From Sipunculus nudus (taxonomy: Eukaryota > Annelida > Sipuncula > Golfingiida > Sipunculidae), in contig CM049321.1 of assembly GCA_026874595.1 (NCBI GenBank), positions 12,486,979-12,550,978 on the forward strand: a stretch of DNA of 64,000 nucleotides. The letters are read 5' to 3'. The position numbers and the translations under genes were made by a program. Below the pieces are notes generated by a model. It did not search any database and was not told the origin of the DNA. It saw only the letters and a list, made by a program, of their open reading frames with translations. Of this stretch, positions 5,476-39,737 are shown piece after piece (the first letter of the stretch is position 1; the number at the start of each line of letters is the position of its first letter).

Positions 5476-6550
5476 TCTTAGTTTGAATTACTTTTTAGAC
5501 GGTATCTGAATGCAGAACTCGAGGGAATCATCTGAAGTCAGGTTCAAGGGCAAAGCAGAGTGCATATTGCAATGCTGGACAAACCATTCGGCAACATGTC
5601 AGAATCGATTTATGCTGGATTTATTAAACAAATTTTATATACATGGGAAATGTTGATTTAAGTCGGGTGCATAAATTGTAAAAGCATCCATAATCATGAG
5701 ATATTACTTTATATTTTAGTAAATTCAATAACTGCATTGCTTCCTGTGCCATTTTAACTGACAGCTTGAAAATAAAAACGAAATGAGGTAATACATTCCA
5801 CTTTCCATACCTTCAATTTCAGTCAGACCCAACGTATTTTCAATGGAGTTACGGACTTGGAATGCTTTCGGCAAAGAACAGAATGCCTGTGTCGTTGCTT
5901 GTTGATCTGCTATTCACAACACGTGCGTGTGATACAATTAACCCCCAACTCAGGACCAATTAGGTCCATTATGCATATGAATAACCCCTGCTCTCAATGA
6001 CGAATCTGAGCAAATTTGACCTGACATTTGAATAAGTCACTGACCCGTTTGCATGGTCAGTAAATGTGAAAAACATGTGGCTCTCGATCCCTTTGAAATC
6101 TGTTTTTATGCCAGCATGCATTAATGGTTAATGCCCCATTTCATCTAGGTAATCATTTGGCATAATGTTGAAATGACCACAACAAGTGTCGCTGCACTAT
6201 CACCTCGCATTTTCATTTTCAACAATTCAGGAAACACTTAAACTCGCCTAAACTACCCAAGGAAGAACGTGCATAAGTTTCTGTTTTATATTTACAATAG
6301 CGGACAAATACCTTTTCTTGGTTATATTTTGCGTTGGTGTTTACGACGTAAAAGCGTGTTGTGCGAATGAATGTGGGCAAGAGATTTATCCTTGACATTA
6401 ATAGATAGGCATTCTATGAGAAGAATGTGACATAATGGTAACAAGGGTATTACCCTGCCAATAATCAGGTAAAAACAGGTATCCGCCACGCAGGCCTTCC
6501 CAACCTCAGCACAGGATCAAGATCCATTAAGGGAGATGATTTTCATAGAT

Positions 6551-6700
6551 AGACACTATATGTGGAGAATGAGGCCTTCCATTAAGATTTCATTTACCTT
6601 TGTACTTTTCTTAATATTCAAAATTAGACATTATATGTGGAGAATGAGGCCTTCCATTAAGATTTCATTAACCTTTTTACTTTTCTTAATATTCAAAATT
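6551..6700. repeat. 75-bp direct tandem duplication
   Basis: The block 6551-6625 is repeated at 6626-6700 with few differences, including the phrase GTGGAGAATGAGGCCTTCC in each copy. It lies in an intron of pseudogene A and looks like a simple recent duplication. Confidence 0.9.
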
Positions 6701-7669
6701 ATTTGAAAGATTTACATTTGACACAGTCTTTGGTTACGTTATAGGTTACTGATTTTCCCATAATTCTCTGTTTCTTACTTTTTGGGGTTTTCGACTTAAC
6801 ATACATCATTGATAGTCCCTACAACATACATTTTCCTTTACTTGAGTGGTTTCCCAACTTAAACGCATTATTTAGTCCCTCAAAACACATTATTTAGAAT
6901 TCCTTCAGAATTTTTATTTTCTCTCATCTACTTGAAGCATCGTATCACACAGTCAGGAGAATGGGTCGGCCTACTAACGAATCATGCATAGTTCCGTTTT
7001 TCTCTTTATTACAAACACCGTACATATGTCGCTTAAACTCGTCCTAAATAGACGATTATCGTACTAGTTTCGAATCGTTGCGGAGAAAAAACTCGACCAG
7101 AATAAGAGCAAGAGTTGTACCGATGTCTCCATTATCAATATCCTCGGTAAATTCGTGGAATTTTCAACGAGTTATAACTTGCCGTCATTTGTGGTAACGC
7201 GTGGCATTATCTTGCGACAGTGGGACCCGGCCCTTAGGAGCAGCTTCTGCTCCCTAGAATATACATTCAATTCATCTTTCATATCTTCCTTGCATCATTT
7301 ATACGTCTAACAAAAATAACATATATAACCAGCCAAATATTTTTAAAAATCTGAATGCCACCGGCGTCCCATTCTGGTTCGCAATCATAAGCATCATCAC
7401 TGAACATGTTGAACATACCCTATGCCGTACGATGTATGAATTTCTTGCCGAGAGCAGAGCGAGACAAAATAAATGTAATCAAAATATTTTTGTATACCTT
7501 AACAAGAAAGTATCCCATTGAAAAACTTTATTTTAATTTTACTTTTAGACTAAATTTAAATAAGCTAACATTCCACATATACTTTTATACACCCCCAACC
7601 CCGATCAAAAGCCCGGTTACCTGCTTAATCAACTTAAAAATATATATATACATATGTGTGTGTGTGATA

Positions 7670-8090
7670 TAGTTGAGTCCGAACCATCCGAGTTCAAGGC
7701 CGAGTCCAGACCATTCGATTCCGAGTCCAAGTCTGAGTACTTGAGGATCGAATCCAAGTCCACCATCCTCCAGTCAAGTCATTTGGAACTCGAGTCTAAG
7801 TCCGAGTTATTTGAAAATTTTATGTTAATTTTCTAGTGCCCTTTACTTCAATGTTAATTACGTTTAGCCCCTGATGCTAAATAAACAATTTATTTTATAA
7901 TATTCCACTCGTAGTGCATAATCCTTATATAGTATGTGGCAGAGTTATCTTTTCGACTGGACTCGAGATGGACTTGGGCTGATTTCTCTGGTCCTGATCT
8001 CCGAAACCAAATACCACTCCAGGTCCAGGATATTTGATTCCAAGTCAGAGTCCTTAAATAGTGGACTCGAGACGGATTTCAGTCCTACAT
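7670..8090. repeat. Degenerate GAGTCC/GACTCGAG-rich repeat
   Basis: Short words such as GAGTCC, GAGTCCAAG, GACTCGAG and their complements recur irregularly, with an AT-rich gap at about 7820-7940. A 60-codon open frame inside is compositional. I see this as a degenerate short-period repeat or the subterminal part of a transposon in an intron of pseudogene A. Confidence 0.55.
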
Positions 8091-11000
8091 CATTAATATA
8101 GGGCTAAACATTCCACGTTCCATAGACCAGCTAAATATATGGTTTTGTACGACTAGTTATGATAATTAATAATAATGGCTCAGATGTTTTTACGTAGGTC
8201 GGACTGGAAGCAACGGAATATATACATGCTTTAGACAGCGATAAAGAATGTGCATATTCCATGGGTGGAGCTTTATAATGTGTACATTCAAGTAAACGAG
8301 CCTCTGAATTTATATGCTAAACGCATGTTCTGGTTGACCAAGACACACTCATATATTTTGAATGGTTGTCAGTGATCATAAGGGGGATGAGTTGAGATAA
8401 TGTGTCACTACTCACAACTGTGGTTGAAACTAAATAAAACATTTGACTCATTCAGATCACTATAGTGTTGTTTGTTTTGACGGTGTAACAACAAAATGTA
8501 AATTTATTGATTTAATAAATATTTTTCTTGTTATACACACCCAATTATAAGAGTATATATCACCACTGTGCCAACAAAATATTAATTAGATATACCAATA
8601 GCGGTTTATATATTTCTTAAACATATCTGTCTGAGTATTGTATTCTAAAAAAAATGTAATGGTATCAATGTATATTTCGACACCGTCTCAGCAAACCATG
8701 AACTTTGTCTGTTCATAGACATAATATGCAAATCTATGTAAATATTTATTCTCAACAGGTATATTATTATTAGGGCATATTCAAGAAGAAGTTACCTTGT
8801 TGTTTACGTTTGGTCACCAGTATCACGGCGATGTAAAATGTAGTCCCAAGGTCGACTCAGATCGAGTTTTGAACTTTCAATTTCGTGAAACATCCCGATA
8901 TATGGGTTATATTGCAGGAAATATTCAGTCATTTAAAGAAAATTAAACCTAAACCGTCTGTGCAGAGAGAGGGTGGTCTGATTGAATCGTGTTTGGAGCT
9001 TGTGGTTGCGGGTTTCTTGAAGCCCATGTTTGCCCTTGAAATACCTGATGAAATACCTGCAGATAATTAAGTGGACTATTAAAATATGATTCACTTTCAG
9101 GGCTAATTGATTTGTTTTGGAGATGTTATACGGAACAAGACAGTAGACAAAACGGGGAATCGATTGACCCCTTCATGAACTAAAATTATCATTGCAAAAT
9201 ACCATAAGCATAGGTGTTGCGAGCAACCAATCATGTTATGTTTGACGATCCTCTAACATAATTTAATTGACTCTTCCACACACAAAGCTGAAGCAGCGAG
9301 TAGGAGCGTAAAATATGGTGGTCGTGCTAGGGGTCGTGTTGATTTGACATTCGTTATAAACGTTTGTAACCGGAGACTTCGGACATGACATATTTTTTTT
9401 CATTCCCAAAACCACTGTCGCACGCCGGAATATGCCCTGGGTGTGCGAAAGACCTTCAGTCCTTTAGTTTGTTTTTGGGAAGTTGCTTAATTAGGTCAAA
9501 GGGGTGTGAATAAGGGTTGTGGTGATGATGTCAATTTGAATGGATCCGGAGACATCCATATTTAAATTTACAGACCCGTCCCAAGGTGATTTATTATTTC
9601 TTTTCGCTGATTGTCTATACTTCACAATTTTATTGTTAAACATGTATTTCTATTGCACAGAGGGCATGCTCTAATACGCTTTACAGAGAAAGAGGTAAGT
9701 ATTAGATGAAATTAGGTAAATATAAGATTTATATATTACACGGACACACGCACACATAAACTCGGCAGATTACATAACCCTTTACGTATTTCGGTGGAAA
9801 AGGAGAACAACATAGCCGTATTCTATTCAAGGTTTGTTTGCATGTTTTTCTATATATATACATAAAATGAGAAAAAGAGAGAGATATAGATATAGATATA
9901 TAGATAAAAACCTGACTGTCATGTGAGCATGGCAAATTTTACACAAAGAAATGTAGTAATCTATTATTATCAATCACTAATCTTTTGTGATTATGTACAA
10001 TGAAAGGGTGAATTCAGTAGTCAAAGATTTTACTACCCCTGAGCTTCCTGTTACAAAGAACCTACCTTGGTCATGGGAGGAACGATATGGGTGATCACAG
10101 ACAAGGCTTTGTTAACACCTATAGGGGATCAGAGTTTGGGTGTAACAATGGACAACATGATTGATATGTACTTCCAGTCAATTAAGGCTGATCACAGATA
10201 ATTCGAGCTAAGATTATTATTCTCCAATGAATCTAAGTAATGGCCAATTTTGGTTGAAACATTTCTGTAAGGGCACTTATATCTTGTTAAGAAATAGAGT
10301 ATTAAGACTAAAATCACCCGTTGGGGTATCCAGTCTCCCAAGGTGACGGCAAAAGAAACTGACGTTGGCGAAATCAAAAGTACTATAAGTTTCATTTCCA
10401 TGGCTACCGCCTTCTTGTAGAAAAAGATTAATCAATACATTTACACAGTATAATAAATAAAGTGTACAGTACCTGAATACCACTACTGTCACAGCGACAA
10501 CAGGTCCTTTAAAACGAATAATCCACGTAAACAATTCAAATAGTCCAAAGTAAAGCTCTTGTAATAATCCCGAAAGCAAACTGGAGAGGCCGCACTAAAT
10601 CTGCACTGAGTTCGTAGAATCCCTGAAACTACTACATTTATCGGATAGGTCATAAACTGACTCACACTCTTCCGTGTCCGCTGGAATATTTCACTCTCTA
10701 CTCTCGGCTCTAAAACACAGCCTCTTATTTATAACTTTTCACCTCAAGCCGAGAACTTTCCATTTCACGAAAAATCCAAAAGAACCCAACAATATATAAT
10801 ACACACGCTGGAACAAAGAACGCGTGTTTCAACACGACGGACCCAACCCGTGGGCCGGGCCAGCTCTCGCGTCTCCCATGCCAACGAACAATGCTAGAGC
10901 TGCACAGACACATTTAAGACTGCTGCACACAATAAAAGAGACATCTGAAACAATTTATATTCTCTCACTCGTTAGATTCCAATGGTCCGCTTTGAGTGAA

Positions 11001-11929
11001 GGTTTTCATTATGCTGCTGCCATTTTTATTGTCCCCTCGACATCTTCACCAGTGTAAGCGTGTGGGTAACCTGCCGATTTTACGGCAATAAGGTACCTGT
11101 CTCCAAAAGAAAATGTTGAATTAATTGTAAGTCTTTTGCAAAATTTTCTTTTTAATACCTATTCACAATGTCCTACTCAAGTGCGTTATATTCATTTACA
11201 TTTTAAAATGTATCGTACCTACAAAAGAAGTTACTAAAAGACCACGTTCTTCGAAGCCATCGTGCTGAACGTCTAAAAAGGCACGTGAGTTCTATAAGAG
11301 AAGTCTATAGTAGATTCTTGATTAAGAAGGGATTCGACTTCACCACGTCTCTTTAAATTTTTGACTGATTTTGAGAATTAAACAGAAAGCGGTAATTAAA
11401 AAAAATCAGTCAAGTTTGAAAACGGAAAAAAGAATTGTAGATTTGCCTCTTTACCTCTAACAGGCTTCGGGTACCATTGTTGCCATTCGAGTGGTCTTTC
11501 CTTTGCCGTTCAACTGTCGTGGCGAAGCAACAGTGACACAACCCTGCTGTGACAGCTAACGTTAACATATATAAAATATCCTTTTTCTGAAATGTATTCT
11601 AAAGTCTCCTCTATACTATCAAGTGTATCATAATCGCATTGCAATTCAATTTATTACGAACCTGTGAGCTTATGCGATTGCGCAGCGTCGTTGGACCTTC
11701 ATCGTCCGTCCTTATGTAAACCCATGTAATCTCCAAAACGATGAGCTAACAGCACCAAAATTTAGGAAAGAATCAATCATATGGCAGACTCTGTCAGATT
11801 GAGTTCATTTTTATTGTATTGCATTTACTAAGGATTTACAGTGAAGGCTAATATAGCTTTTAAATCTACTTCTCTGAAACCATCAGGCCAAATTGTTCTC
11901 ATCACCAAATTTATGCAATTATTGGTTAC

Positions 11930-13800: not shown

Positions 13801-14740
13801 CATTTACTGTGCAACTTTCTGTTTTATCCATCAATGTCAGTAATACAGGAGTAACGTTTTTGCAATTGGTGCTTGTACTCTGGTCCAAAATATTTTGATA
13901 CTTCCGTTGTACATGTACATGCCACACATTTACTTGAAAGGTAATCAAGTACTTCACAAATAATGGTTAAACAGTTATCATTTTATCAGGAAGCGTTATA
14001 TCTGATGTATATCCCATTGCACAATTGCGCAATTGTAGGCCTTGTTTTGCGATTTATTGCCCAGCTTTCCACTCACTAGGTTTCTGAATTTTCAGTTATT
14101 TTGAATGACATATTTTTTCAGAATTATGGTTTTACCTGGTCTTTCGAAAACGCAATATTTGGATTTATATTTTCTCAGTACAGATGTTATCCTTTCACAT
14201 ACTTAGAATGCTGAAAAGCACTATTACATGACTTTCTTTACTCCTTAGCTCTCTATACAACGTTAGCTCTGCGTAAAGAAACATGATACCAATAGCATAA
14301 AAGTAAACGCGGATATGAAAATATCTTCTCCAGTCAGCATTTCACCCAGCGATGTATTTAATGATAAGATACATTGAGTACATGTTTCTACGGGCAATTC
14401 ATTTTATCTCGGTCACCAACATACTGTAGTTAGTGGTGTATTTAAATAATTAAGCGCATGTGCCATATAAGCTTAGCAAATTGTCCGTGGATAAAATCTT
14501 GATATTGCGAGAAGTATTATCAGGAAGTATTAAGCAAAAATGTTAAATCGTTAAAATTTTTCTTGGAGCTTCGTCAAATCGATTTGGATGCCGTACAGAA
14601 TAATAAGAGAAATAATGACTACACTGTGTAGAGGTTACGCTATGGTAACATCGCGAAAATTCAACCCCGCGAATATAGAGCCACTATAATATTGTATAAT
14701 TGGTGTTCAATTTATATGTGTTAAAATATGGTAATCCTGT

Positions 14741-15746
14741 TCATCTGAGCTTGATGTCACACAACTCTACTCCGCTTTGAGTGCGAATATAAACATATGA
14801 ACAGTTGTCATCACTGTCCTCCGGACATGCGCACTGAAATGTTCCGATATTAGGTACCAGCTCGGCTATGAATCACTGTTTATATACATGTCCTGGGGAT
14901 CCCGGGCTGTTCGGGGCATTCATTCTAACAGTCACGCGGGTTTCCAATTCTGCTTTGTTCAGTGGTGGTTGATGAGTCAGGATAACCCTCACGGTGTAAT
15001 CTGTGTGCACCAACCAGGGAATTTCGACTTTGACGAGGAACAGATGCCGTTCCATTGCATAGGGTAGCTCTACAAATATTATTTCATACTTTTCATGAAG
15101 TACCACTTACCCGGTCTAGTCTCTGAAGGTATACGGGTTGTAGAGCTAACTCGTTTAAGAAACAACAACTATTTTATGATTTACACTGCATTTGGTATTT
15201 TAAAAGTTTTTACAAAGATCAGTGCACAATGATAATTTCGTATTGCATCTTCAGTTGATTCAATTCATAGTATATTTTCAAATGCACATTTCCGAGAGAT
15301 GATTTGAATTTTTCTTTTTAAAATATGGGTTTGAATATTTCAGGACAATCTGATAGGAGCAGTTAATAACTTTTAAATTATATATTTCTATATATCAAAT
15401 AATAACAGTATACATATCCCAATACGAGAAATAAAAAACCCCTCCCTCTATGAAATGATCGAGAGCCCATAATTTTCGTCTTGAAGTGTACAGTATTCGT
15501 TTCCCGGTGTTTCTAAACCCAAATAGACATCCTGAAGAGTAGCCTTATTAACAAACGTGTAATCAATATTTGAATTTCGGAGCGTTTAACCACCAGTTTA
15601 TGGTCTGCTACTTTATTTTCATACATCATAATTACATAATGTTGACATCAATAGAATTGGAAGAAGATAAGCTACATCACAGCATATATTTTTGCTAAGA
15701 AAAGTTATGTGTATTAAATCTTTTTTATCTGTTGTTTCACCTCCAG

Positions 15747-15804
<58 letters not shown>

Positions 15805-17194
15805 ATATATATATATATATATATGAAATAAGTGGTATAGCCGTGTTAGTCTGTAGCTGAAGCGAAAGTTAAGATAAACGGTGACGCCGTTTAGATAGAC
15901 TAACCAGTTAAATTAGACACGAGCTTTCGAAGTACAAAGACTTCTTCGTCAGGTGGTAATAACATAAATCGTCAGATAATTTATGTCACATTTTTGCTTG
16001 CAGACTTTAGTTTTTTTCATTAATTTTGCAAGAATCGCATGTGTATTTAAATACGCATTTTACTTAATCCCTGGGATCGTTATTGATTATCGGTTTTCCA
16101 ATACTTCCCTGGTTTATCTCATTGACGAGAAAATTCCTTTTTTAGTTCGAAACACTCACCAGACGGTATTTGAACGCATGACTCCAAGGAATCATCTATA
16201 GTCAGGTCCCATGGGAAATCAGAGAGTAAGGCAATACTGGACACCACATTGGGCGGCATATCAGGGCCGATATATGCTGGATAATTGAGACAAATATACT
16301 TGATAAAAAATGTATAAACAATGTCAGCTGTAGAAAAAAAAGTGATATAGTGCACAATAAAGATAATAAATTTTCTATTTTAGTAATTTTATTAAATGTA
16401 TTGCTTCTTGGTTTACCTAATCTGACTACTAGAAATAAAAACTTAATGAGGTAATACATTCTTTCAATACCTTCAACTTCAGTAAGACCCAACTGGTTAT
16501 CCACAGAGCTAACGACCTGAACGATCACGAACCGGCCAGTTTCCAGTGGGTTGCAGGGGGCGATATGGGTAGTTCCAGTGGAGCTGTAGGTCGTGGAGTA
16601 AAACTGTTTACAGACACGAACACGTGACATGACCTGCACGCCATCCTGCGCCACATGGTCGTCGCTGACACCAGCGAAAATATCTGGGACATCCCCAGGG
16701 ACAGAACCTGTGCAAGATAAATAATTGCGATTTTTGTTAAAATTACTTTAAACAAATTTGTATGCATATGTAACCGGAAACATTTCCCATTTTTGAAAAT
16801 ATGAACAAGTATGCATAATACATATCAATATACATATAAACCTTCTTTCTTCTTTATATATGTATGTTTCTGCGTTTGTGTGTGTGTGTGGATAGCGGAT
16901 TTAGTGGACGATAGAGCGTATAAAATATAGACATTCTATAGACAAGCTTAACACATGAAATGGACAATTAGTTATGATAACTTATACAAGATACTCTCCT
17001 TGGCTCGTATGTTGGCGTACGGCAGTTGGTATGGAAGTTATGTATTGCTTACATTCCATGTACCGTGACACATTCCATGGGTGAAGCCTTAGAGTGTGTA
17101 TATTTAAACACACAAAACATAAAAAAGAAAGAATATAGAAAGAGAAGGCCTAAGCGTTGTTTGGCACAAGAGTATTGATATCAAGGCATATTTC

Positions 17195-17244
<50 letters not shown>

Positions 17245-17920
17245 ATGACCATGGCCCTAGAAGGAGAGTTTACCAACTCGCTGACGTTTGGTCACCACAA
17301 TCACGGCGATGTTAAAGGTAGTCCCCAGGTCAACACAGATCCAATTTTTTCGGTTGGTTTTCGCGAAACATCCCGACAAGTGGGTTATTCTTTAGGAGGA
17401 ATGTAATCATTTGAACAGAAATACTATCTCATTTATAATTCTGAATCAGCTCGATAACCTAATATTGAGCGATATTACAGAGAATGATCGAGCCACCAAA
17501 AGCACAAAACAAAGACTTGATGTCGATGAACGGTTGATGTTATCAATATAAGACGACGGAGAAGTCTTGTTTAGCCTAACATACATGGTGGGAACTGTCC
17601 ATCTACACAAATTCATTTTCTGCAACATGTTCTGCAAAAATAAATAAAATCCACAAGCATGCAACATAATCTCATGGATTTCATCGCTGTTCTGCCTGTT
17701 TAGCAAGTTAAATCAAGGGTACATCAAAACTTTCCTCCCTAGATAAAAAATTGTTTGAGGATGATTAAATTTCCTTTGTTTGTCTGAAAAAAATGCGTAT
17801 GATGAATTGAGATGCTTAAAGAACGATCTGCTTACCTGACACCGTTTGTGCAGAGAGATGGAGGTCTGTTTGAATCATATATGGAGCTTGTGGTGCCCTG
17901 TTTGTTGAAGGCCACGTTTG
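14741..17920 (-). CDS. Copy B exons 5-9: tandem FTP (F-type-lectin-like) domains
   Basis: Exons 5-7 (17836-17920, 17274-17389, 16471-16707) form FTP1. It starts NVAFNKQGTTSS, a typical FTP/galactose-binding-fold opening, continues with NWICVDLG, and ends TGRFVIVQV...GLTEVE. Exons 8-9 (16160-16276, 14741-15069) form FTP2, ending CSYVYIRTQSGVELC. In both domains the Arg of the usual RxD sugar-binding motif is not evident (FTP1 has C-V-D), so fucose binding cannot be assumed. The nonsense codon at 14875-14873 removes the final strands of FTP2. Confidence 0.65.
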
Positions 17921-19591: not shown

Positions 19592-19645
<54 letters not shown>

Positions 19646-24815: not shown

Positions 24816-25234
24816 ATACAACTTTTTTTCTATTTTTTGTTGTTGTAAACAATAAATATGTATGTTCTGTTACAAAGTAATTATGTGCATTTACAGAAAT
24901 TATAATGAAAATAAAAAAAACTGTGAACAAAGCCGGCGAGCAATCATTTTGTATAGTGACCTTATCGGAATCTCATGTACATTAATCATGTCGAAAGATT
25001 GATATTATATATACAATAACAGATTGTTTATGTTACCCGAAAATAACAGTTTGATGGTGTTAATATAACCACATGTGTCGGTTACTGACCAGAATGTTCA
25101 CTCGGTCGATGTATCCTTTCTGCCTCATTTTTTTTAAAGATTTTGTTTTGTTTTTTTTAAATAGGACAAATGATAATATATTTATTCTGTGCAGGTGACT
25201 GTACATAGGAACAGTTGCTAAACAATACATTAGA

Positions 25235-25285
25235 TAATCTTCAAAAGTTTACCCCGCTAATATGAAACCAACCACAATATTTAAC
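25235..25285. mobile_element. Relic of the CGCGAA MITE family (one end)
   Basis: The sequence CCCCGCTAATATGAAACCAA followed by CCACAATA matches the right terminal part of the MITE copies at 27934, 48903 and 58075. No left end is visible. Confidence 0.45.
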
Positions 25286-26129: not shown

Positions 26130-29100
26130 TCATCTCAGTCTTACCTCACACAACTCTACCCCGCTTTGAGTGCGAATATAAACATGTGAACAGTGGTCCT
26201 CGCTGTCTTCCGGGCATGCGCACTGGAATGTTGCGATATAAGGTATCACCTCGCTTACGAAGCATTGTTTATACACGTGTCCTGGGGATCCAGGGGTGTT
26301 CGGGGCTTTCATTCCAACAGTCCAGTGGGTTTCCAATTCTGTTTTGTTCAATGGTGGTTGATGAGTCAGGATAACCCTAACGGTGTAATCTGTGTGCACC
26401 AACCAGGGAATTTCGTATTTGACCAGAAACAGATGCCGTGCCATTGCATAGGGTAGCTCTACAAATAAAAATAATGTCGTACATTTTATGAAGTTACACT
26501 TACCTAGTCACGTCTGCACATGTAATTTGGTTGTAGATCTAACCCGTTTTAGAAACAACCCGCCTTCATTATGATTTGAACTGCATTTAGTATTTTATTT
26601 AAGAGCTTTTCTCGAGGATAATTTTATTATTATACATTGTATGGCATCCAACATCTACAGTAAATTATATCCATGATATCATTCAGGTTTGTGCAAATCC
26701 AAAGTATGGACAAAATTTATTTGAACAGTTAATACCTTTTAATAATATATAACACTATATATCATTCATGTAAGTATACACTTCCCGATAGCTAGGCATG
26801 GAACAGAAATTAAAACCTCTTCCCGTATTGAATTTCCCCTTGTATATTCTGGAGGTGCCAATCATCCATTTTCTGGTGTTTTTCAACGCATATAGTAGGC
26901 AGACATCCGGAGATTCACTTTTTTATAGACCGTGTTCTCATATTTTAATCTTAGGAGCAAATTAGTATTATTGTATGGACTTTAACTTTATCTAATAATT
27001 TACAACTCTATACTTATGGCAGCAATAGCATTTGATGAAATTTTATTACATATTAGTTTTGCACAGGACAGTAAAGTGTTTATTCTGACGCCATTTGTGT
27101 ACCCCTGCCCCTCATTTATCCTAAAAAATAAATTCACTCTTCACAGTCGTAAACGCTTTAGTCAATTAATTTCAGCGATACCTTTGTAAAATAAGTGCAA
27201 AAGATTGGTCAAAATGGGTCTGCAAAAACATTTTTTTTTTATAAATTATATCACAATATAGAGTCTCTCAAATGAGAAAATAAGTGAACATGTATCAGCC
27301 CCTACCAATGGATTTTCAGGTAGTCTAAAACATGAACTTCATGCCACAGGCCAGAAAGTAAAAACCTATCCCCAGGGAACTTTAATCTTTTTAATTTTTT
27401 TGTGGGGGTAACCTGGAGGTAACCGCCTACATTTTTTAATGCTTACTGTAGCAGGGCGATTTCACAGACAATTTCATTTTTTTATCATAATTAAGGTACG
27501 CACGGTTGAAAACCGCGTAATCGGGTTAGTATATGCGTTCCACACGAACGGCCTTTTTCAGTTAGCTTTGAGCCAACTGTAGTAAAGACAATTCAAAGTC
27601 GGTAAAACAAACGCTTCGCATTTCAAGTTAGTGGCTCGCGGTCATCCGTCGTTAACCTTGCTCCGATGTGACTGCATAAATCGTTACAGGAGGCACGCTT
27701 TAGTATTTTGAGGGTAGTATGAGATTTTGCTACAGGTAGGCCATATAGAGTGGTACTTTACCCGGTTTAATTTAAAAAGTTTAAGCCTGTCATTCTAAAA
27801 CCATTTATAATTTTTATATTTAGGTTGAAACCAGTTTCACTGTTAAACAGTCACAGACTTAGGTTCGTTCATTGAATACCACATTGCGCCACGCTGTAAT
27901 ATTTTCTTCGTTTATTTAATTGGTGGGCATAACATACTGTGGTTGGCTTCATATTCGCGAGTCTGAAAATTTCGCGATTTCTCCATTTTAAATGTTTAGC
28001 GAGGGTTTCATTTTCGCGATCTCACCAGAACTTATATGAACCTTTGGTAAAGCCATACCTGTGTGTATTATAAAATGAGAATTAGTCATAAGTTTGTGAT
28101 ATCCTACTCCTATAAAGATGGTCCCATACAACACAGGTAGTTGAGTTCAAATTCAAGAGAACGTTTTCCCTAGACCTGCTTGGATTTAATTCATTATAAA
28201 ATTTCTCACTGTTCTAACCTATTCACATACACGTATTGGTTTCACTGATCAAGAACAACATACTCAATAACCCAATTATTCCCGAGGGTTCAATTTTCGC
28301 GATTATTTCCCATTCGCTAATATCGCAAAATTAAAACCCTCGCGAACAAAAAGGCAACCACAGTATCGAGCTTTATAAGTCAAGAACGTTGGATGTAATG
28401 TTATTTAAGTAAAACGGTGTATGTTATGTACAACATTTTGCAAGGAGTCCCGCTAGGCACGTTGCAGTCATGAGGGTTCTTGCCGTCATGGAAACAGTTC
28501 GGCCTCTATCCTCTCTTGATAGGGTATGACTTGTTTAATCTTGATTTGGAATTTTTTCCTCCAATACAGAGTTTCAGGTTTCTCTGTAAACTGTATCAAT
28601 CTGGTTTGTATATTCTGTCTTGCTATATGAGGCGTATTATTTCTACGATATTGCAATATAAGACATACTTTCTTGTATTTTGCTGCCACAATTATGATAT
28701 ATCGGTTTAATTTCCTATGTCAAGGCATAAAACGTTCATACAGAGTTTTAGGGAACTATAATTGAAACGGTCTGTTGAGCAGTAAAATGATTATAGCAAT
28801 ATACTTAACACTTTCTATTTCATGTATTTCAACAGGGTTTCCTTACTGTTTTAATAAACTGGTCGTCACACACTCTTGGCCTTTGCAGTCTGATTTTTAG
28901 GCCCATTTTTCTCTGTGGTGTTTCCCGTTACAAAACTAAGTATATGTACATCTGCAAAATTCAATTCCGCTATAGGACTACGTGACAGGGCAGTATCACA
29001 CGCTTCCTGTCTTTTTATATCTTTGTGTTAAGCAGGCCTGGTGACTATTTTACCTGCGGAACCTGGTTGCTTAACTCCCCCCATCGCTGGGTCATATCAC

Positions 29101-29277
29101 AGAGGAACCCCCGATAGACGCACTCGTTTACGAGTATAACACTGCCATGGGGCACGACCTTCCCATTTGAAAGATTTTACCCCTATGGCTGATTTGAACT
29201 CATGATCTCCCGGTTTTGAGGCCTGTGCTGTACCCCTGAGCCACAGAAGGTTTACTTTATTCATTTAGTGGTGTTTC

Positions 29278-29352
<75 letters not shown>

Positions 29353-29670
29353 CAAACACCCTAAAATTTGCCTTTATTACAGATCTTGCGTTTAATTTTC
29401 AATTCGTATGGAGTATATGGACAATGCCGCTCTTATTATAGACAAAACAGCAAACTTTTGACAATAAGTGAACTTAGAGGCCTTTAGCTACACGAGGAGT
29501 GTTTAGATTAAACTGGTTTACCAAAAATTTCTTTCTTAGTTAGAATCACTTACCAGGTGGTATCTGAAGGCATGACTCCAGGGTCTTATCTACAGTCAAG
29601 TTCCATGGTAAATCAGAGTCTATGGCAATGCTGGACACCGAGGGCGGTGACATATCATAGTCGATATATG
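26130..29670 (-). CDS. Copy C exons 8-9: FTP domain 2
   Basis: Exon 8 (29554-29670) encodes AYIDYDMSPPSVSSIA and TLESCLQIPP, resembling the A-V-D-G and C-x-Q segments of FTP domains. Exon 9 (26130-26458) encodes ELPYAMARHLFLVKYEIPW, which takes the place of the W-W-R-V-D-L-G strand but lacks the Asp. It continues with YTVRVILTH, HVYKQC, QCACPEDSEDHCSHVYIRT and SGVELCE. The final TGA is at 26132-26130. A possible donor GAG|GTAAGA lies 16 nt before the stop, but copy B lacks it, so I prefer the stop. The 3.1-kb intron between these exons carries a MITE, a SINE and a long (TA)n. Confidence 0.62.
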
Positions 29671-30898
29671 CTGGATAAATTAAACACATATATATATATA
29701 TATATTATTTGGAAATATAAACATTTAAGCCACTTATTATAATATCCATAATCAAGGGATTTGGTTTAACACAGTGGGGAGTGTACACTACCAGTTTAAT
29801 AAGACCACTTGTATATTGTCACCACCCAAAAGCATTCACGTTATAAATAACCTCTCTCATAAGATCATTCACCTTTGAGTTAAGACCTCTTTTGGCTAGT
29901 CCCTGAATTCAAATAATGGTATTGCTTTCTGTGCTATCTAACCTTTCTGCTACAAATTAAAAAAATTAATTAGGTTAACATTCCACTTTCTTTACCTTCA
30001 ACTTCAGTCAGACCCAAAGTATTTTCAATGGAGCTACGGACTTGAACGATCACGAACCGCCCGGTTTCCGTAGGGTCGCAGGGAGCAATATGGGTAGTTC
30101 CAGTGTTACTGTAGGTCGTGGAGTAAAACGTTTTACACACACGAACACGGGACATGACAAGCACGCCATCCTGTGCCACATGGTCGTCACTGACACCAAT
30201 AGATATGTCTGGGACATCTGTAGTGACAGATCCTGTTGAAGATAAAAAATATATTGATGTTAAAAATATAAATGAATATATATAAGAATTTATATAGGTA
30301 TATATATATATAAATATTATTTATTTATATTTATTATTGGTTAGCTGGGGTAGTGGACTGTCGAGCATGTAGAATATGATCGTTGGTTATTGTGACCAGT
30401 GTTTATATACATGTCCTTTAGATTTTAGCTAACTAAAAAATATCCATGAGCTGCGTTATATAATGTACTCACATTGGTGAAGCCATAGAATATGACACAT
30501 TTAGAGCCAAATAATATAGTAAATACACTCCAAAAGGCATGCTCTTTTTCCCCAAGACACTCTCTAATGTTGTGAATAGCTATTTATGGTCACTATGCGA
30601 TTAGCTGACACACTGTACGACGCTACTCATAGAAGTATTTGGAATTTCTTGCATACATAGAACGTATGACTAGTCTGTTTTACTGTAAAAACGTTACCAC
30701 AAATATAGGTAAATTGCTTTAATAATTATACTTTTTTAAGTCTTTTTCGTTATTCTTTTCGACACCCCGTTGTAAGAGTATACTTCAACACTTTTCGACA
30801 CATTTTTCCTCAACAAGGGTATTGATATCAGGTGAAAATTCTATCGGCAGCAACAAACGGTAGATATGGTATGTTGATGAATATATATTATTCAGCAA

Positions 30899-30940
<42 letters not shown>

Positions 30941-33900
30941 TATGGCCATGCCCATGAAGGAGGAGGTTACCGACTCGTTGACGCTTGGTCACCATTATCA
31001 CGGCGATGGTAAATGTAGTTCCCAGGTCTACACAGATCCAGTTTTCAACTTTGCTTTCCGTGAAACATCCTAATTCATGGCTTTTTCTGTAGGATAAATG
31101 CTGTCACATATATAAATACTCAAAAGATTATAATCAAAATGGTGAGCAACTTGACCACCATATATTGAAACATTTAAGAGAGAATAATCAAGCCATCCTC
31201 AATTATTTAGGGCTTCATACAATATTTTGCGACCTGAACCCTACTCCTTTCTGGAACAAAGGACCCTTTTAGCTTTACCTGAGTAGGACCAAAAACAAGT
31301 GCTCATGTCTGCTTGGAACATTATCAAAGTTACACGACAGAGAAGTTTTGTAAAGCATCCCATACATAGTTGGACCTACATGTGGCTAAACATGAACTGT
31401 CCATACTCACAGCTACATGTTTTGCAACATGTTTTCGAAATATGATAAAATACACAAGCATGTAACATAACCTCAGGGCTTTCAGTAAATCGTGAGTTCA
31501 TATGAACTTTTCTCACTGATAATAAATATTATAATTTTTTTTCTGGTTCCGGTCGATGTCGACTGGTCAGGACTTTTGAGCGCTCTCGCTTTCAAGGGTT
31601 ATTTCTTTGATTTGTGACTTGGTGGACTGTCGCGTGACCATTGTATCCGTGCATCGTGATTACAGGTTGTGGACTGTAATTTTGCCGGATAAAAGAGCTG
31701 AATTATTAAAAAAAAGGATGGCGGAAAATCATACACACAGTGAACAAGGACCTGCACCTAATTGATAGCTTTGCTAGCAATTACCAATCAACCAGAGTTG
31801 AACCCGTATTCATTCGGTGCAAAGATATACCGGGTTTTGAAAAGGCCGAGGCTCAAAACCAGGCTTACATTACAACAAGAGAGCTGTGCGCTGCCTGCGA
31901 GGTGGTCGCGGGATACGGGACAATGGAGGGCGCTCAGCGTATCAGGGGCGTCTGGAGGTTATATCCAAAGTCAAGTGACGCAATGGCTCACTTGCTTATT
32001 GAGGGTTTACAGTTAAGGGGCTTCACCATTACACCTCATGCTGTTAATCCTTATATGTTGTGAGCCAACAAACAGACTCTGAGGGAACAGAGGAAACCCC
32101 TCATCACTCGTGTTACGATTGGGGCCATTCCACTTTCGTACTCCAATGACGAAATAAAGCGAGCGCTAGAAAACTTAGGATGCCAACTGAGATCAAAAAT
32201 ATATGATGAATGTGACCGGTGTGACGATAATGGAAAACTAGAAGACGATTTGTTTGTATATCTAAACCAAATAAATGCCTCCCCAAGAAAATACCAATGG
32301 GAATGTTCGACGCTCAAGTGTACAACAAGGAACAAAAGAAAATGGAAAGAAGAAAAACAAATATGATAGTGACGCTCCTATAGAATGTAAAATTGTCGAA
32401 AGGATGGAAACAAGACTGGTGACCAAGAATGTGAGATACTAGGAAAAGAGGAAGTCCTATCCCACCCGTCTCAGCAACCAGAACCCGGGTCACAGACACA
32501 AGGCACCGAGAAACCTAAAACACAAACATACAAAGACAAACGCCAACCCCGAAGAGAGAGAGAACAGAAAAACACAAAGGGCTATCAGACAAAAATCGCT
32601 CAAGATCATTATCACGTTCAGTGGTAAAGAATAAAGAAGGCATTACCAACTATCTCGCCGACATCCGCTCAGACCCCCAGAAACATAAGGCCAACGCTCT
32701 CTCCCCCGTGGACAACCAAGAACAGAAAAGACAGGTGATACAGGATTCGTAAGCCTAGCGGAGGTACGCTTTGTTTCTCTGACTTTCCCTGTTGGTACGG
32801 ATTTGCTCACGGACTTTGCATTAAAGTTATACGGACTTGTTTAATACGTCGACTTCAATTGTAAAATTGATAGTTTAAATTGTCATGGTTTGAGGTCACA
32901 ATTAAGAAGAAACACAATTATTAATGAGCTTAAACGCAACAAAATAAATATCGCATGCTTACAAGAAACATACGCAGATGAAAAACAGATAGACTATTTT
33001 GAAAGCAAATGGAATGGTAAAGTTTTTTATGACAAAGGTGCTTCCTACACTAACGGCCTGGCAATTTTGCTAGATAAGAATATTTTATCAATGATCGATA
33101 ATCTGGAAGAAATAATAGAGGCAAAAGATAAAAGAATCCTAAGAATAAGCTTTAGTGTAGATGATAACAGATTTAAAATATTTAATATATATGCGCACTG
33201 TGCAAGTAAAGAAAAGGTAGAATTCTTCCGTAGAATACAGAATACAATAGCATCACATGACTCTGACTGTGATTATATGGCAGTGTTAGGAGATTTTAAC
33301 TCATTAATGGCAAACTCTCTGGGCATTGTATCAGGCAAAGATCACAATGAAAGAGTGGTCAGGGCTCTTAATGACATGGTGCGAAATTCCCTGCTAATAG
33401 ATGTATGGCCTGTTATGCATGGAAATGAAAGCGCTTTTACATGGAGTCGGAGTAATCCTTTTATTCTCAGAGAACAGACTACGTTTTCGCTAACGAAGCA
33501 TTTATGGATAAAGTTATTAACAGCTCAATTAATTATTTCCCATGTACTGATCATAGAGGCACTATCGTCACAATAAGTATAAACACGAAGACAAGAGGCC
33601 CATCGTTCTGTAAATTTAATAATTCTCTATTAAAAGAAGATATTTTCGTTAAAATGATAAATAACACAATAGACAGTTATAAAAAAGATACATCAGGTAA
33701 CTGGAAATTCATATGGGAATGTTGTAAAGCCAAAATTAAGGAATACAATGATTTATTGTCGTGGTAAATCAAAATACCGAAAAACATAGAAAGATAAATT
33801 GTTAAATACACTTAAACAGATATAAGCAAACTATGACATGAAAGATAAACAGATACAAAATCAAATCATTAAGATCAAACAAGAACTTGGTATGTTAAAC

Positions 33901-36900
33901 ATACATGAAGCAAAAGGCGTACAAACAAGAGCAAGGGCCAAATGATGAGAGCAAGGGGAAAGAAACCCGAAATATTTCCTTTGTTTAGATAAATCTAGGG
34001 CACAAAGAAGGCGCCTTTGATTCGATTAACAAAGGGTATATACTAGAGACCATGAAGATATTTGGTTTCGGTTCGCAGTTCATGCATTGGGTGTCAGTTT
34101 TATTCAATGGCAGTGAAAACTATATACAACTCAATGGCTGGCTTTCTCAGATGATTCAAGTTCAGTCTGGGGTCAGACAGGGGTGTCCATTTTTTTACCC
34201 GGTTTTTGTTCTGGGCCTGGACCTTTTGGCAATAAAAATCAGTCAAACAACTGAATTAAAAGGTATTAAACCACCGTTGACTAATTACTCGGTAAACAAT
34301 GTTAAAATTGCACTATATGCTGATGATGTTACTTTGTTCATGAGAGATCAAGCAGATATCAGATTATGTTTTAGACAAGCAATTTACAGAAATATCTGGA
34401 ACGGCGTTAAACCAAAATAAAACGGAAGCTGTATGGATAGGGAACTTTAAACATAAACAAGAAAATAATGAAGAAATCAAATGGAATATCTATCCAAACT
34501 GTGAAACTAAAAATTAAGGGGTCAAATTTAGCAGCTGTTAGCCGGCATCAGATATTAAAACCAACTGGAAGCTCCGAGGAAAAATATTATTTGAAGAAAT
34601 TAAGTAAAGGGAAAAGAGAAATCTCTCGATAATTGGGAAAATAATAATTGTGAAAACCTTTCTCATATCCCAGATGGTATACATTATGCAAGCTTTGTAT
34701 ATGCCTGAAAAGGTAATCAATACCATTAATAAAACGATTTTCAATTTTTTTTGGCAAAAAAAAATTTGTAACAAGTGAGCATATGGAAAAAGTAAAACGG
34801 AAAATAATGTCATCTGATTATGAAGATGGTGAACTCAGAGTCATTAACGTCAAAGATATACAACATGCTCTACTCCTAAAATTGGTAATATTATTGGTGA
34901 ATAACGATAAAAAACATGGAAAAACATTCCGTTATACTACTATGGGAAAATGGGAAACCATCTCTCTGTATTTCGGAGTAGTGTCAACCCCATTGATATG
35001 AAAGGGACGCATCAAATAAAATCGGATTTCCACACAAGTTTATTAAACACAAGGCTAACGTATAATAAAAATAGTACAATGGGAGAAAATACATATAGAT
35101 CGAGGGTAATATGGAATAATGAGGCATTTGCGTATAAAAAATCGGTTCTGATCTGCAGAGACTGGATAAAAGCAAATATTATCTACATGGAAGATATATT
35201 TCAAAACGGACAGATTTTATCATTTGTTGAGAGAGTGCAGAAAAAGGGGTGTGGGCCAAGAACACTACTGGAATATAATGTAGTAAAGACCGCTGTCTTG
35301 CATAGCTCACTTAGCCACCAGGTGGCGCTAAATTCAGCGATTCTATTTAGGGGTAAAGAAATCAGTAATTGGACCGCGAGATCTAATAGACTATCATTAG
35401 CGAATGATTGCGTAGGCCCCCAACAAATTCAAAAGTTCTGGAACCAGAAATATGAAAATTTTAATTTGTAAAAGTGCTATATGGAAAAAAACATATACAC
35501 TTGTACTAAAGAAACCAGGTTAAGAGTCTTACAGTGGAAAATCGTCCACAACATTTATCCTATCCATATCTTGTTGCAAAAAATTGGTGTTACTGACACA
35601 AACAGGTGTTTCTATTGCAATGAAGTAGAATTTGTCGAATATTTTTTCTTTAACTGTGTGAAACTAAAACCGTTTTGGGACACAGTAGAATCCAATATCT
35701 GTGTTAAACTATGTAAAAGGATCACACTAACAGAGAGAGAAACAATGCTAGGATACGGGAAAACAGAAACACTTACACGACATGACATAGACATTATTAA
35801 CGAATATATTTTGATAGCAAGAAAATTGTATCAGCAAGTACAAATATGGTAATTTAACAAACCCGATATACCTTTTTGAACAAGAATTGCACCATAGATC
35901 TTGAATTTGATGTACCTTTCAAATGAAATCTTATAGGACTGTACTAATGTATCACGGTATTCTCAAGAAGATAATCAAGGTTATTTAAAAAGAATAAAAA
36001 AATACATAAATATTTTCAAGATGATAAAATTTCCTCTGTTGGCCTGAGAAAAAATGCGTATGATATTAAAGAACGACCTGCTTACCTGACACCGTCTGTG
36101 CAGAGAGACGGAGGTCTGTTTGAATCATATATTGAGCTTGTAGTGACCGGTTTGTTGAAGGCCACATTCGCTGTCGAATTATTTGATGACAGCGGCTGTT
36201 CATCTGAAGTTCATTTTATAAATCGTATAAATTTTACCACTAACTTTCTTTTTAACTGCTCCCTCGAATTTAACACACAGAGATCACGCATATATCAAAT
36301 ATTTCAGCTTATCATATAAAAAAACAACTTCCATTAGCGAAATTAATGTGTTTATCTGAATGAATTATTTGAATATAAAAAAAATATTTTTTTTTCTTCA
36401 TAAGAGTACGGATAATCTTTTGCCATGAAAACAATATTGTAATTATGGTAATAATGATTTTATTTCGATTTTTGTTCAGATTTGCTTATAGGAGTAACGA
36501 ATAAGAAAATGCATTTGTTTAAGTAATTATAAAAAAAATGTTGATTTAAACTATTTCTCGGGACAATATTCATAATTAAATCTGATACATCATGCGTAAA
36601 TTAAAATAAAAAACATGATGAAAAACACAACACATTGAAAATAAATACGTATATATTTGCTAACAAAAAGAAACCACTTGCTCAGCAGGAGTTCCACGGT
36701 ATTTGTTGCGCGTACTCTACAGTTGTTCGTCCCATCATGCACCGGGCATTCAAACAACCATCTCTGATTGGTCGCTTTATTCAGTATCCAACCCTTTTAA
36801 TTAGTATCAGAAAGGGAAAAATGAATGGTGGAATGTTTCCTAATGGTTACATGCGAATGTTCTGTTTTCGGCAAGTAGATATAGGAAGGAGCATTTACAT

Positions 36901-37339
36901 TAGTACAACCTGATATTGTGAAGTCTCTAAGTGAAAATACATACCTAAGTAAATAAGAATCAAGAAAAGATAGTCTTATAATTAAAAACGTATTATTTAC
37001 TGTACAATCTCTCTCCCAAGACAGATTCTCACCTGGACGCTTTCCACTGGATACTTTCTTAGTGCATCCAGAGCAATTATCGAACTGTAACAGGTTATTT
37101 CTCCCGAATGTAATCAAAACGGCTCATATGTTCTGCCATTTTGCGTACACACTAAACCCGGGACGTTACTGGTCACATGAATGATGGGAATAGATTTAGT
37201 TTAATTTATAAACAACATTTCACCTGTTTTAGTATCCAGTCTCCAGTGCTCATTGAGAAGGAGACTGCCGTTGGCGATGCCAAATGTACCGTAAAGTTCA
37301 GTTCTATGGCCACAGTTCTGGAGTATGATGGCATCAATT

Positions 37340-37384
<45 letters not shown>

Positions 37385-39737
37385 CTGATAATAAAATATT
37401 GTCATTGCAGTTCGGACATTCCTAATTTGCAGCACAATTTCACACGGTGGATTTAATTTGTCAACATATTCCATTTAATAACCTGAAATATGCTTTTTAT
37501 AATTCACTTGACATGTCCAACTTAATTTGACTGGCTGTGATCAGGGGCATGTATCTCCACTTAAGATTACGTAATTTTTTATTTGTTTTCGTGAATTAAC
37601 ATATCGGGAAATTTAGGATATTGCCGCAACATTTTCATCTCTATACCTACACTACTCTATGCCGATCAGTTCTGATTAATGACATATTTACATTAAATAC
37701 TGATTTACGATATGTGTGTGTGTGTTTGTGTGTGTGCTGGGCCCATTCTTCCGATATCATGGGTATGACCAAATAACATATCTTAAGATGAGTCTGACCC
37801 ATTTACCGTTCCTCAATGTATGGAAATGTATTTTCAAAATACAGGCCCCAGAACAGATTTCAGTTTATTTTATTCTCTCAATGGCTCGGGGTCCGAGTAT
37901 GATAGCGCATTTGTCAGGTGGTATACACAAAAATGATTTCCGCGTTATGACCTTGCGCCGGACCGGGGACTCGGGTTGGTTTTTAGATCCCATACCATCA
38001 AAAACGTTTATGGGGCACCTATTTGACGAATGATATGGTCAGTCATTACTAAAAATGATGAACTCGTGGGCAATGGCTCTGAGCCAATCACTGACGGGTA
38101 TAACAGACGCCTTATGTATACGATTCACAGATACCAAATCTCAAGGGACGAGGATTACACCTTAAATTAACACAGATTCAGATATGATAGGAGATTCGAG
38201 AAATCGTAGTTAATCGTAGTCTATCAATCTCTTAAGATTACGGAAAGACGAAAAGGTTATTGAGAAATCTTTTACGAACATATGGGGAATGCATCGAAAA
38301 ACACACGGCGTATCTGCGAGTTATTCCTGCCAGTCACAGTCGATTTTTTAATATATGTTCTCCATCAAATGATAACTTTTATGACCAAATCGATGATTTA
38401 TGTCACATCCTCATATATAAAGAAAATGTAGTTTTTCGTGAAGTTTATGTCTCTTGCCTACAACTCGGACATCTGGCCACCAAAGGACCGCCGGGCCCGA
38501 TACGCTCAAGGGTGAACACCCCGAAATATTGGACAAATCAGACGGTCCTGGGACCGCCCGCTATATAGTGGTTTCTCTGTATGTACGTATGTATGTGTGT
38601 ATATATATATGTGTGTGTATTTATATATTTATAATATATGTACATACATAATACATAATGCATATGCTCACCTGTTACGGTAAATTGGTCCACTGACAGC
38701 GAATGTTTGCAGAATACTGCTGTCATTTTTAATCGCCGCCTCAACACTAGAGTCAGTACCTGCATGCTGCTGACTTGCAGTTTTTATGGCAATTAGGTAT
38801 AATTCTCCTGAAAAACAATGTGGACTTGTGTTAATTTGAAAAAAAAATATCTTTCAACCACGCACACTTATACAGAGACATTCCAGGTCTGTCACATTAA
38901 TAATTATTATTCCTTTAAAATAATAGTTCATTATATTACAAAATGGAATATTTATCAAGAGCTGTTATGGACCTATACTAGGTTTAGGCTTAGACCTGAT
39001 AAAATGCTATGAAACTTTCCTTGCCTGGTCTTACTTTTCATGAGCACTCTGTACTTATTGGTCAAATACCTGATGCTCGGATGACAAGCAGGGAAAAATG
39101 TGTGCTAGCACATCCGAGGTTTAAATATATAATGTAAAAAACTAAAACGATTAGAACAATGCAAATATTTTTGTTATTTCGATCCGCTCAACCGGTGTGA
39201 TGGTTTAGCGCGTTTTTACTGTGCTTATTACCTATACTCGAGAAACCTCAAGATCATTCATTTTTTTTTATTGGTTGAGGTAACCACTCTCGTTTTTTTA
39301 AATGGTGACTTAAGTAACTACTTTTTAGATATACAGAATTCCATTCCGGTTTGGGACTGCGTGACAGGGAGTGGATGCAGGATCAACCTGGCGTCAGCCA
39401 GGCTCTTTGTCCTGAACCTACCGATCATGGGTGTGTAACACCAAGGAAACCCCGAAAGGCGCACTCGTTTGTGAGTGAAACAGGATTGTTGGATTAGTTT
39501 TCCCATTAAGCCTGCGTCGGGCCAATAGTAAAATTCCTCACCGCTCCTCGTCTAAATTTCAAATTTCCGACCTCCTGACTTTGAGCTTTGTGCTCTATTG
39601 GTGGACTAGGAAGCAGGTATGAAAATTCTGTATTATTCCATTTAATATTTCTTTGGTTCTTGTGTTTTACCTCTCACTAAACTGCAGAGAATCGGCATAA
39701 ACTGCACAACCCCGGAGTAACACGAGCTAGGCACCAT
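26130..39737 (-). CDS. Copy C: intact secreted PLAT-like + 2x F-type-lectin-like protein (430 aa)
   Basis: Nine exons: 39671-39737, 38672-38807, 37224-37317, 36682-36793, 36086-36170, 30971-31086, 29996-30232, 29554-29670 and 26130-26458. They total 1293 nt with all phases matching and no internal stop. Residues 1-22 look like a short signal peptide (starts MVPSSCYSG, with a hydrophobic core). Residues about 23-136 are PLAT-like (AIKTASQQHAGTD, GWILNKATNQRW). Residues about 137-282 are FTP1 and about 283-430 FTP2, ending SGVELCEVRLR then TGA. That stop is shared with copy B, which supports it as the true C-terminus. The protein is cysteine-containing, has no membrane segment and is predicted to be secreted. 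The exon 4 donor reads GA|GCAAGT, a GC-type donor. Introns contain a LINE (31531-36005), a MITE and SINEs. The known FTP family includes fucose-binding defence lectins; binding here is unproven. Confidence 0.78.
27934..28366. mobile_element. MITE, 433 bp, TA-flanked, in last intron of copy C
   Basis: Inverted termini CTGTGGTTGGCTT and AAGGCAACCACAG are bounded by TA on each side. Internal arms carry mirrored TTCGCGA/TCGCGAA words. There is no coding capacity. The TA boundary suggests a Tc1/mariner-mobilised non-autonomous element. Relatives are at 48903-49852 and 58075-58493. Confidence 0.75.
28955..29252 (-). mobile_element. tRNA-derived SINE, family 1
   Basis: On the minus strand the head reads GTGGCTCAGGGGTACAGC (A-box-like) and then GAGTTCAAATC (B-box-like). 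The body holds a block AAACGAGTGCG followed by TCGGGGGTTCC, and the tail contains ACGTAGTCC-like sequence. Body and tail also occur in the SINE at 39337-39617, whose head has diverged. It lies in the last intron of copy C. Confidence 0.7.
29280..29350. repeat. (TA)n microsatellite
   Basis: About 71 bp of pure TA just outside the SINE head, in the last intron of copy C. Confidence 0.97.
29996..36170 (-). CDS. Copy C exons 5-7: FTP domain 1, intron split by a LINE
   Basis: Exons 36086-36170, 30971-31086 and 29996-30232 encode residues about 137-282. Motifs are TNVAFNKPVTTSS, NWICVDLGTTFTIAVIMVT, VCKTFYSTTY, GRFVIVQV and LGLTEVE. These follow the usual order of an F-type lectin fold: N-terminal strand, conserved V-D-L-G, C-terminal L-x-E-V-E. 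The intron between exons 5 and 6 is about 5 kb because a LINE has inserted; the same intron in copy B is 446 bp. The intron-6 donor, close to a (TA)n tract, is shared with copy B. Confidence 0.68.
30902..30938. repeat. (TA)n tract shared with copy B
   Basis: This lies about 32 bp past the FTP1b donor of copy C, at the place equivalent to 17197-17241 in copy B. Confidence 0.92.
31740..32366 (+). pseudogene. LINE ORF1 (interrupted by one stop)
   Basis: The open frame 31740-32063 reads on in the same frame after a single TGA (32061-32063) to about 32366. It includes ITRVTIGAIPLSYSNDEI, an RRM-like first strand and helix seen in ORF1 proteins of Tx1-like LINEs, where it would bind element RNA. 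No zinc knuckle is seen before the frame ends. Confidence 0.6.
32845..35852 (+). pseudogene. LINE ORF2 remnant: endonuclease + reverse transcriptase
   Basis: The endonuclease runs about 32852-33600. Motifs are LNCHGLRS, ACLQETY (catalytic Glu), NIYAH, LGDFN and, after a frameshift near 33477, CTDHRG (the catalytic DH). The fingers of the reverse transcriptase are missing: sequence jumps at about 33765-34000 to motif A (GAFDSIN, about 34008). Motif B (SGVRQGCP, about 34172) and motif C (YADD, about 34317) follow. After more frameshifts comes a C-terminal CFYCNEVEF...FFNCVKLKPFW zinc-finger-like region at about 35600-35690, as in Tx1-like LINEs. Confidence 0.85.
36682..38807 (-). CDS. Copy C exons 2-4: PLAT/LH2-like domain
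   Basis: Exons 38672-38807, 37224-37317 and 36682-36793 (136, 94, 112 nt) join as residues about 23-136. The loop HAGTDSSVEAAI matches the A-G-T-D-A-N-V type signature of PLAT domains better than in copy B. The end GWILNK...QRWLFECPV fits the last PLAT strands. Two NxS/T sites (NDS, NFT) suggest glycosylation if secreted. A (TA)n tract lies 24 bp outside the 37317 exon edge. The exon 4 donor is GCAAGT where copy B has GTAAGT. Confidence 0.55.
37342..37382. repeat. (TA)n microsatellite
   Basis: A pure TA run starting 24 bp upstream of the exon 3 acceptor of copy C. Confidence 0.96.
39337..39617 (-). mobile_element. tRNA-derived SINE, same family as 28955-29252
   Basis: On the minus strand, a diverged tRNA-like head (AATAGAGCACAAAGCTC) is followed by the AAACGAGTGCG...TCGGGGTTTCC block and a tail ending GGAATGGAATTCTG. 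It lies in intron 1 of copy C and was copied along with the segmental duplication. Confidence 0.65.

Follow-up and report, generated by a model that had tools for sequence, protein, structure and literature searches.

A candidate secreted protein with PLAT-like and F-type lectin-type domains, encoded by one intact copy of a tandem gene family in Sipunculus nudus

The DNA analysed here (the window) is a 64-kb stretch of the genome of Sipunculus nudus, C16:12486979-12550978; the genome scanned alongside it comprises 1.43 Gb in 153 contigs. The window holds a small tandem family of genes on the minus strand, one copy of which, copy C, joins a PLAT-like region to a diverged F-type lectin domain and to a C-terminal domain that may be a second one of the same kind. 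All positions below are window coordinates. Each copy was scanned for exons of the lengths and phases given in a preliminary description of this DNA, and the gene models were then completed by translated comparison.

Copy C (26130..39737, minus strand) is a nine-exon model of 1293 nt, supported by its conservation relative to copy B and coding for 430 residues and a stop. Its exons 1 to 5 lie at 39671-39737, 38672-38807, 37224-37317, 36682-36793, and 36086-36170, and exons 6 to 9 at 30971-31086, 29996-30232, 29554-29670, and 26130-26458; the last exon ends at 26130, and the reading frame is open across all 430 codons. Copy B (14741..21975, minus strand) consists of nine exons at 21909-21975, 21427-21562, 20747-20840, 19679-19790, and 17836-17920 (exons 1 to 5) and at 17274-17389, 16471-16707, 16160-16276, and 14741-15069 (exons 6 to 9). 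Exon lengths (67/136/94/112/85/116/237/117/329 nt) and phases are identical in the two copies. Every acceptor is AG, and the donors are GT in 15 of 16 introns, the remaining one (after exon 4 of copy C) being GC. By alignment to copy C, codon 387 of copy B, in exon 9, is an in-frame TGA.

Copy A (5497..11477, minus strand) is a decayed relict, marked by frame breaks, a stop, and truncations. Seven of the nine exons (1, 2, 3, 5, 6, 7, and 8) were recognisable, the translated comparison yielding no trace of exons 4 and 9. Exons 2 and 8 are each split over two frames, exon 6 contains an in-frame stop, and only the last 16 residues of exon 7 remain. The trace of exon 1 is six residues long and weak when taken alone (E 0.57), yet it falls within a block conserved between B and A. 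An exon-1 fragment with an in-frame stop, fragment D, lies at 62597..62662 (minus strand), at the edge of a segmental duplication, and no further exons were found beside it. Neither this fragment nor the TGA of copy B had been mentioned in the preliminary description. Eight neighbouring loci (two upstream and six downstream; L013-L017 and L038-L040) gave no convincing exon of the gene; the adjacent upstream loci searched, L013 and L017, measure 9,479 and 10,000 bases, and the best matches in the later set of neighbouring loci, E 0.65 and 0.75, were at chance level. A further copy close by was therefore rejected, fragment D being an exon-1 piece only.

The preliminary description had proposed three same-strand copies sharing nine exons, with identical exon lengths and phases in B and C. 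The identity of B and C is borne out, on the minus strand and with matching splice sites, and the sharing of all nine exons does not extend to copy A; the position 5496, given as the boundary of the family, is only where what remains of exon 8 in that copy ends. Three intact copies were rejected, A being decayed and B carrying a premature stop. The locus is thus one intact gene (C) with broken copies, not three working genes, and it has been turned over by duplication and decay, which left B with its stop, A as a relict, and D as a fragment.

Comparison of B and C revealed coding constraint. There were about 148 nonsynonymous differences per 990 sites and 96 synonymous differences per 298 sites, so that the nonsynonymous rate dN was 0.167, the synonymous rate dS 0.420, and dN/dS 0.40 (p = 3.6e-10 in a Fisher test of synonymous against nonsynonymous differences). 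The ratio was 0.73 in the short first exon, 0.45 in the PLAT-like part, 0.27 in the middle domain, and 0.46 in the C-terminal part; no domain had dN above dS, in a comparison of two sequences that cannot test single sites. The search between B and C returned 12 conserved blocks, nine of which hold an exon, and all nine exons lie inside blocks. In the exon-holding blocks, to which the count of gaps was confined, three gap openings occurred in 1292 exon columns, whereas the 1805 flanking columns had 54 (p = 8e-10, Fisher test); two of the three are within exon 2 and cancel in length, while the third is at the edge of exon 1. Because of the dN/dS of 0.40 and the avoidance of gaps in exons, the exon model of B and C is judged by comparison to be coding, with a signal far beyond chance. 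The block around exon 9 extends over ~1.5 kb (14200-15712 in B, 25630-27079 in C), well beyond the 329-nt exon, and dS in the C-terminal part (0.29) is lower than the overall value of 0.42; gene conversion may perhaps account for both.

The middle domain of copy C (exons 5-7, 29996..36170, minus strand; residues 138-283) is a diverged F-type lectin domain. In isolation it matched Pfam F5_F8_type_C with an E value of 4.8e-6 (27.2 bits, with a cut-off of 28.2), and the first eight exons of copy B matched the same family at E 0.0012. Smith-Waterman alignment of the domain with eel agglutinin (Protein Data Bank, PDB, entry 1k12) gave a z of 11.3, a score that none of 500 shuffles reached. When a two-row profile of the C and B domains was searched against six PDB sequences, the fucolectin-related entry 2j1r and eel agglutinin 1k12 came out on top, with weak E values of 0.08 and 0.11, and 1k12 was aligned across domain positions 4-147, nearly the whole domain. 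The gene structure points the same way. In L018, a canonical F-type lectin gene of the same genome and the only canonical locus for which intron phase was determined, a central intron in phase 1 interrupts a Gly codon after the cysteine pair; the intron between exons 6 and 7 of copy C is also in phase 1, also in a Gly codon, and, as read by eye, within one residue of that of L018. The common central intron argues for shared ancestry with the canonical gene. The intron between exons 5 and 6 has no counterpart in L018. By these sequence comparisons the domain is truly related to F-type lectins, and the first of two F-type lectin domains proposed in the preliminary description is supported.

Canonical F-type lectin exons were found elsewhere in the genome at seven loci, namely L018, L020, L022, L023, L024, L033, and L034. 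An H-x26-RxDx4-R motif is kept over two exons in L018, L022, L023, and L024 (the spacing was counted by hand; a review of the family, PMC5712786, writes x24). In L020 only the first half of the domain was seen, and in L033 and L034 only the second.

In the same review, whose residue numbering for His52, Arg79, Arg86, and Cys82-Cys83 is followed here, the fucose-binding motif of F-type lectins is described as H followed by R-x-D-x4-R/K. In the alignment with 1k12, copy C has Phe at the position of eel His52, Arg at that of Arg79, and Thr at that of Arg86; it has Arg where the eel protein has Asp81 of the RxD, and Val-Gly where it has the cysteine pair. A test of residues 138-283 did not find the fucose-binding motif, Arg79 being the sole residue kept. 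The cation motif (two small hydrophobic residues, DG, and a small hydrophilic residue) is likewise missing: copy C has CTDGV, in which DG is kept and the flanks are not, and copy B has CTNGV. Since the triad and RxD residues are replaced in this alignment, the ordinary fucose site of the domain is read as gone, in agreement with the earlier remark that the usual RxD signature was not evident. Loss of the triad is not unique: some isoforms of oyster bindin also lack His-Arg-Arg, according to the review (PMC5712786).

Exons 2-4 of copy C (38672-38807, 37224-37317, and 36682-36793, minus strand; residues 24-137) code for the PLAT-like domain. When isolated, it matched positions 1-100 of 117 of the Pfam PLAT profile with E 0.0032 and 18.6 bits, the gathering score of 23 not being reached; within the whole protein the E value was 0.049. 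Pairwise comparison of copy C with eight PLAT domains from elsewhere in this genome gave z values of up to 4.1, above 2.7 for six of the eight. B and C are 61% identical across this region, and should therefore share a fold. We hold the assignment of exons 2-4 to PLAT, made by profile and pairwise comparison, with moderate confidence. At least 41 Pfam PLAT matches at E 0.001 or better are present genome-wide, the copies in the window not among them, with clusters at C4 70.29-70.37 Mb, C10 40.57-40.65 Mb, and C14 59.94-60.02 Mb.

The C-terminal domain (exons 8-9, 26130..29670, minus strand; residues 284-430) bears a partial likeness to 1k12 and is a possible second F-type-lectin-like fold. The last 42 residues of copy C align without gaps with the end of 1k12 (3.2% of 500 shuffles scored at least as high, p 0.032), and cysteines 387, 403, and 425 have spacings of 16 and 22, as in the aligned stretch of 1k12. 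The best match of the domain to a profile of six F-type lectin second halves ran end to end, with a score of 17.5. The same test is low in power: the accepted middle domain scored only 21.2, and the PLAT-like domain 11.6. On these similarities a second jelly roll in residues 284-430 appears likely. A 24-residue likeness of the C-terminus to L022 (E 0.021) was dropped, as it lies inside a 33-residue stop-bounded frame (splice sites there were not considered). Of the order proposed in the preliminary description (PLAT, then two F-type lectin domains), the first lectin domain thus stands, PLAT is held moderately, and the second lectin domain is reduced to a weak C-terminal similarity. The Pfam searches that it had suggested as a check gave F5_F8_type_C and PLAT matches in copy C, both under their cut-offs, and no match for the C-terminal domain.

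The product of copy C is probably secreted. By hydropathy, the N-terminal hydrophobic window reaches a Kyte-Doolittle value of 2.17 in C and 2.54 in B, while no 19-residue window past residue 30 of the protein exceeds 1.47, i.e. there is no later transmembrane-like stretch. The product also has five N-glycosylation sequons.

Several other features surround the genes. Degraded remains of a long interspersed nuclear element (LINE)-type retrotransposon occupy part of intron 5 of copy C (31710..35852, plus strand), antisense to the gene, with Pfam endonuclease, reverse transcriptase, and zf-RVT matches in three of the five frames scanned; intron 5 of copy B is 446 nt long. A 33-nt satellite of ~167 units fills positions 1-5476 and adjoins the exon-8 remnant of copy A. 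It has extreme strand skew (GC skew of -0.79 in 1-4000), and the long open frames it contains, with repeats like FPDYSYLLFPY, seem to be an artefact due to a period that is a multiple of three. A segmental tandem duplication joins 38885-60563 to a second unit running from 61735 to ~88.65 kb in window coordinates (followed in L014, L015, and L016). Its long pieces are mostly 89-96% identical, some lower, and it carries RING/B-box (TRIM-like) genes; of the PLAT-like/F-type lectin gene, its edge includes the upstream side and exon 1 only. TRIM-like RING and B-box reading frames are present at 44482-45171 (minus strand) and at 54904-56046 (plus strand), the latter long and uninterrupted, with a hydrophobic stretch at its end, and DNA like both regions recurs downstream in L038-L040. 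A tandem array of ~46-nt units (6.8 copies, 54014-54329) lies upstream of the frame at 54904. Rfam gave no matches at gathering score across the window.

The middle domain resembles eel agglutinin (AAA, 1k12), with which it aligns over its full length, and shares with L018 the place and phase of the central intron. It differs from F-type lectins in having neither the fucose triad nor RxD and in carrying one more intron, which lies in the first half of the domain; moreover, a PLAT-like domain stands in front of it, and a second F-type domain is uncertain. A parallel to the possible pair of F-type domains in the copy C polypeptide is offered by MsaFBP32 and other tandem F-type lectins (PMC5712786), although the second domain of copy C is putative and PLAT is not among the domain combinations named in that section of the review, which include C-type lectin, pentraxin, CCP, and F5/8C among others. 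Oyster sperm bindin also has a mid-domain intron and, in some isoforms, has also lost the triad, according to the same review (PMC5712786). The N-terminal domain recalls secreted PLAT/LH2 proteins through its weak match to Pfam PLAT, with the differences that its score is under the cut-off and that it is fused to a lectin-type domain. A further analogy, functional only, is with the apicomplexan LCCL proteins (PfCCp3/PbLAP1), which are adhesion proteins of several domains with LH2 at the N-terminus. They differ in having four LCCL domains and also scavenger-receptor domains, and no F-type lectin domain is named in the passages that describe them.

Building on the exon model, its coding constraint, the F-type lectin homology of the middle domain, and the loss of the fucose motif, we consider it somewhat more probable than an even chance that copy C codes for a secreted, three-part recognition protein with a non-fucose ligand. 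Such a protein would begin with a PLAT-like beta-sandwich, continue with an F-type lectin domain with a replaced fucose triad, and probably end with a more diverged F-lectin-like jelly roll. Instead of canonical fucose, the F-type lectin domain, or the pair, would bind some other ligand, perhaps a different glycan or a protein; tethering of the protein to a membrane lipid or a protein partner may fall to the PLAT-like domain; and the whole might act as an extracellular recognition or adhesion molecule.

A number of observations weigh against this reading. Every Pfam score falls under its curated cut-off, and no basic residue precedes the N-terminal hydrophobic stretch, the signal peptide being judged by hydropathy only. 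For the C-terminal end, there is an appreciable possibility, which we place below even, that residues 284-430 are a different secreted domain following a single F-type domain: they have no match in Pfam or PDB, show no similarity to the middle domain, and lack an intron where the canonical central one would fall, and the profile match is marginal, one of 60 column shuffles having scored higher. The second jelly roll is favoured instead by the last 42 residues, which pair with the end of 1k12 without a gap and with their three cysteines aligned, and by the collinearity of the best profile match with the end of the F-type lectins of this genome. At the other end of the protein, the lectin might carry an unrelated, family-specific domain whose PLAT similarity is due to chance or convergence. 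The sub-threshold PLAT score of copy C would fit, as would the lack of any Pfam match from its exons 3-4 alone and the weak match of a profile of the eight genome PLAT domains, limited to residues 27-52. Copy B gave z values of at most 1.17 against those eight domains (below 1.2 for all eight), and Pfam found no PLAT in its first eight exons, a scan in which its PLAT region was not isolated. We nevertheless regard an unrelated domain as unlikely, given that copy C matches most of the PLAT profile (E 0.0032) and reaches z values of up to 4.1 in comparison with PLAT domains of the genome, and that the 61% identity of B and C leads one to expect a common fold.

Two further alternatives concern the fate and the role of the gene. 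With only one of the three copies unbroken, C might also be on its way out; the constraint between B and C would then be historical, and C would have lost its function as A and B have. The decay of A, the interruption of B, and the stop in fragment D are what such a dying family would leave behind, and copy C itself has a GC donor and a large LINE insertion in intron 5. We find this improbable: C is open over 430 codons with splice sites that look usable, dN/dS is 0.40 and gaps are avoided in exons, and neither a late TGA in B nor an intronic insertion in C need matter. A role in gamete recognition, in the manner of bindin, rather than in immune or other extracellular recognition, seems very unlikely. 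Oyster bindins are F-type lectins with a mid-domain intron in each domain, some isoforms being triad-less, according to the review (PMC5712786); its section on them describes one to five tandem F-type lectin domains and does not mention PLAT. Positive selection like that of oyster bindin was rejected at the level of whole domains, none of which had dN above dS between B and C.

Taken to its full extent, the three-part reading of copy C would define a new secreted family, with PLAT and two triad-less F-type lectin domains, membrane-tethered, directed at a non-fucose ligand, and shaped by tandem duplication and loss; in that complete form we consider it doubtful. A search of 5.39 million papers by these whole words, with subscription papers and protein-architecture databases outside its scope, did not find PLAT and an F-type lectin in one protein; in the single paper where both terms co-occurred, PLAT stood in a figure legend of a section on another lectin family. 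What the locus presents is an unusual domain order in one intact copy, arising from an ordinary event, the duplication and decay of a lectin-type gene. F-type lectins are known to recombine with other domains and to have triad-less isoforms. A PLAT-headed, triad-less member, if true, would add a new partner domain and offer a concrete test of the retargeting of the F-type fold to another ligand, at a locus that shows such genes being copied and lost.

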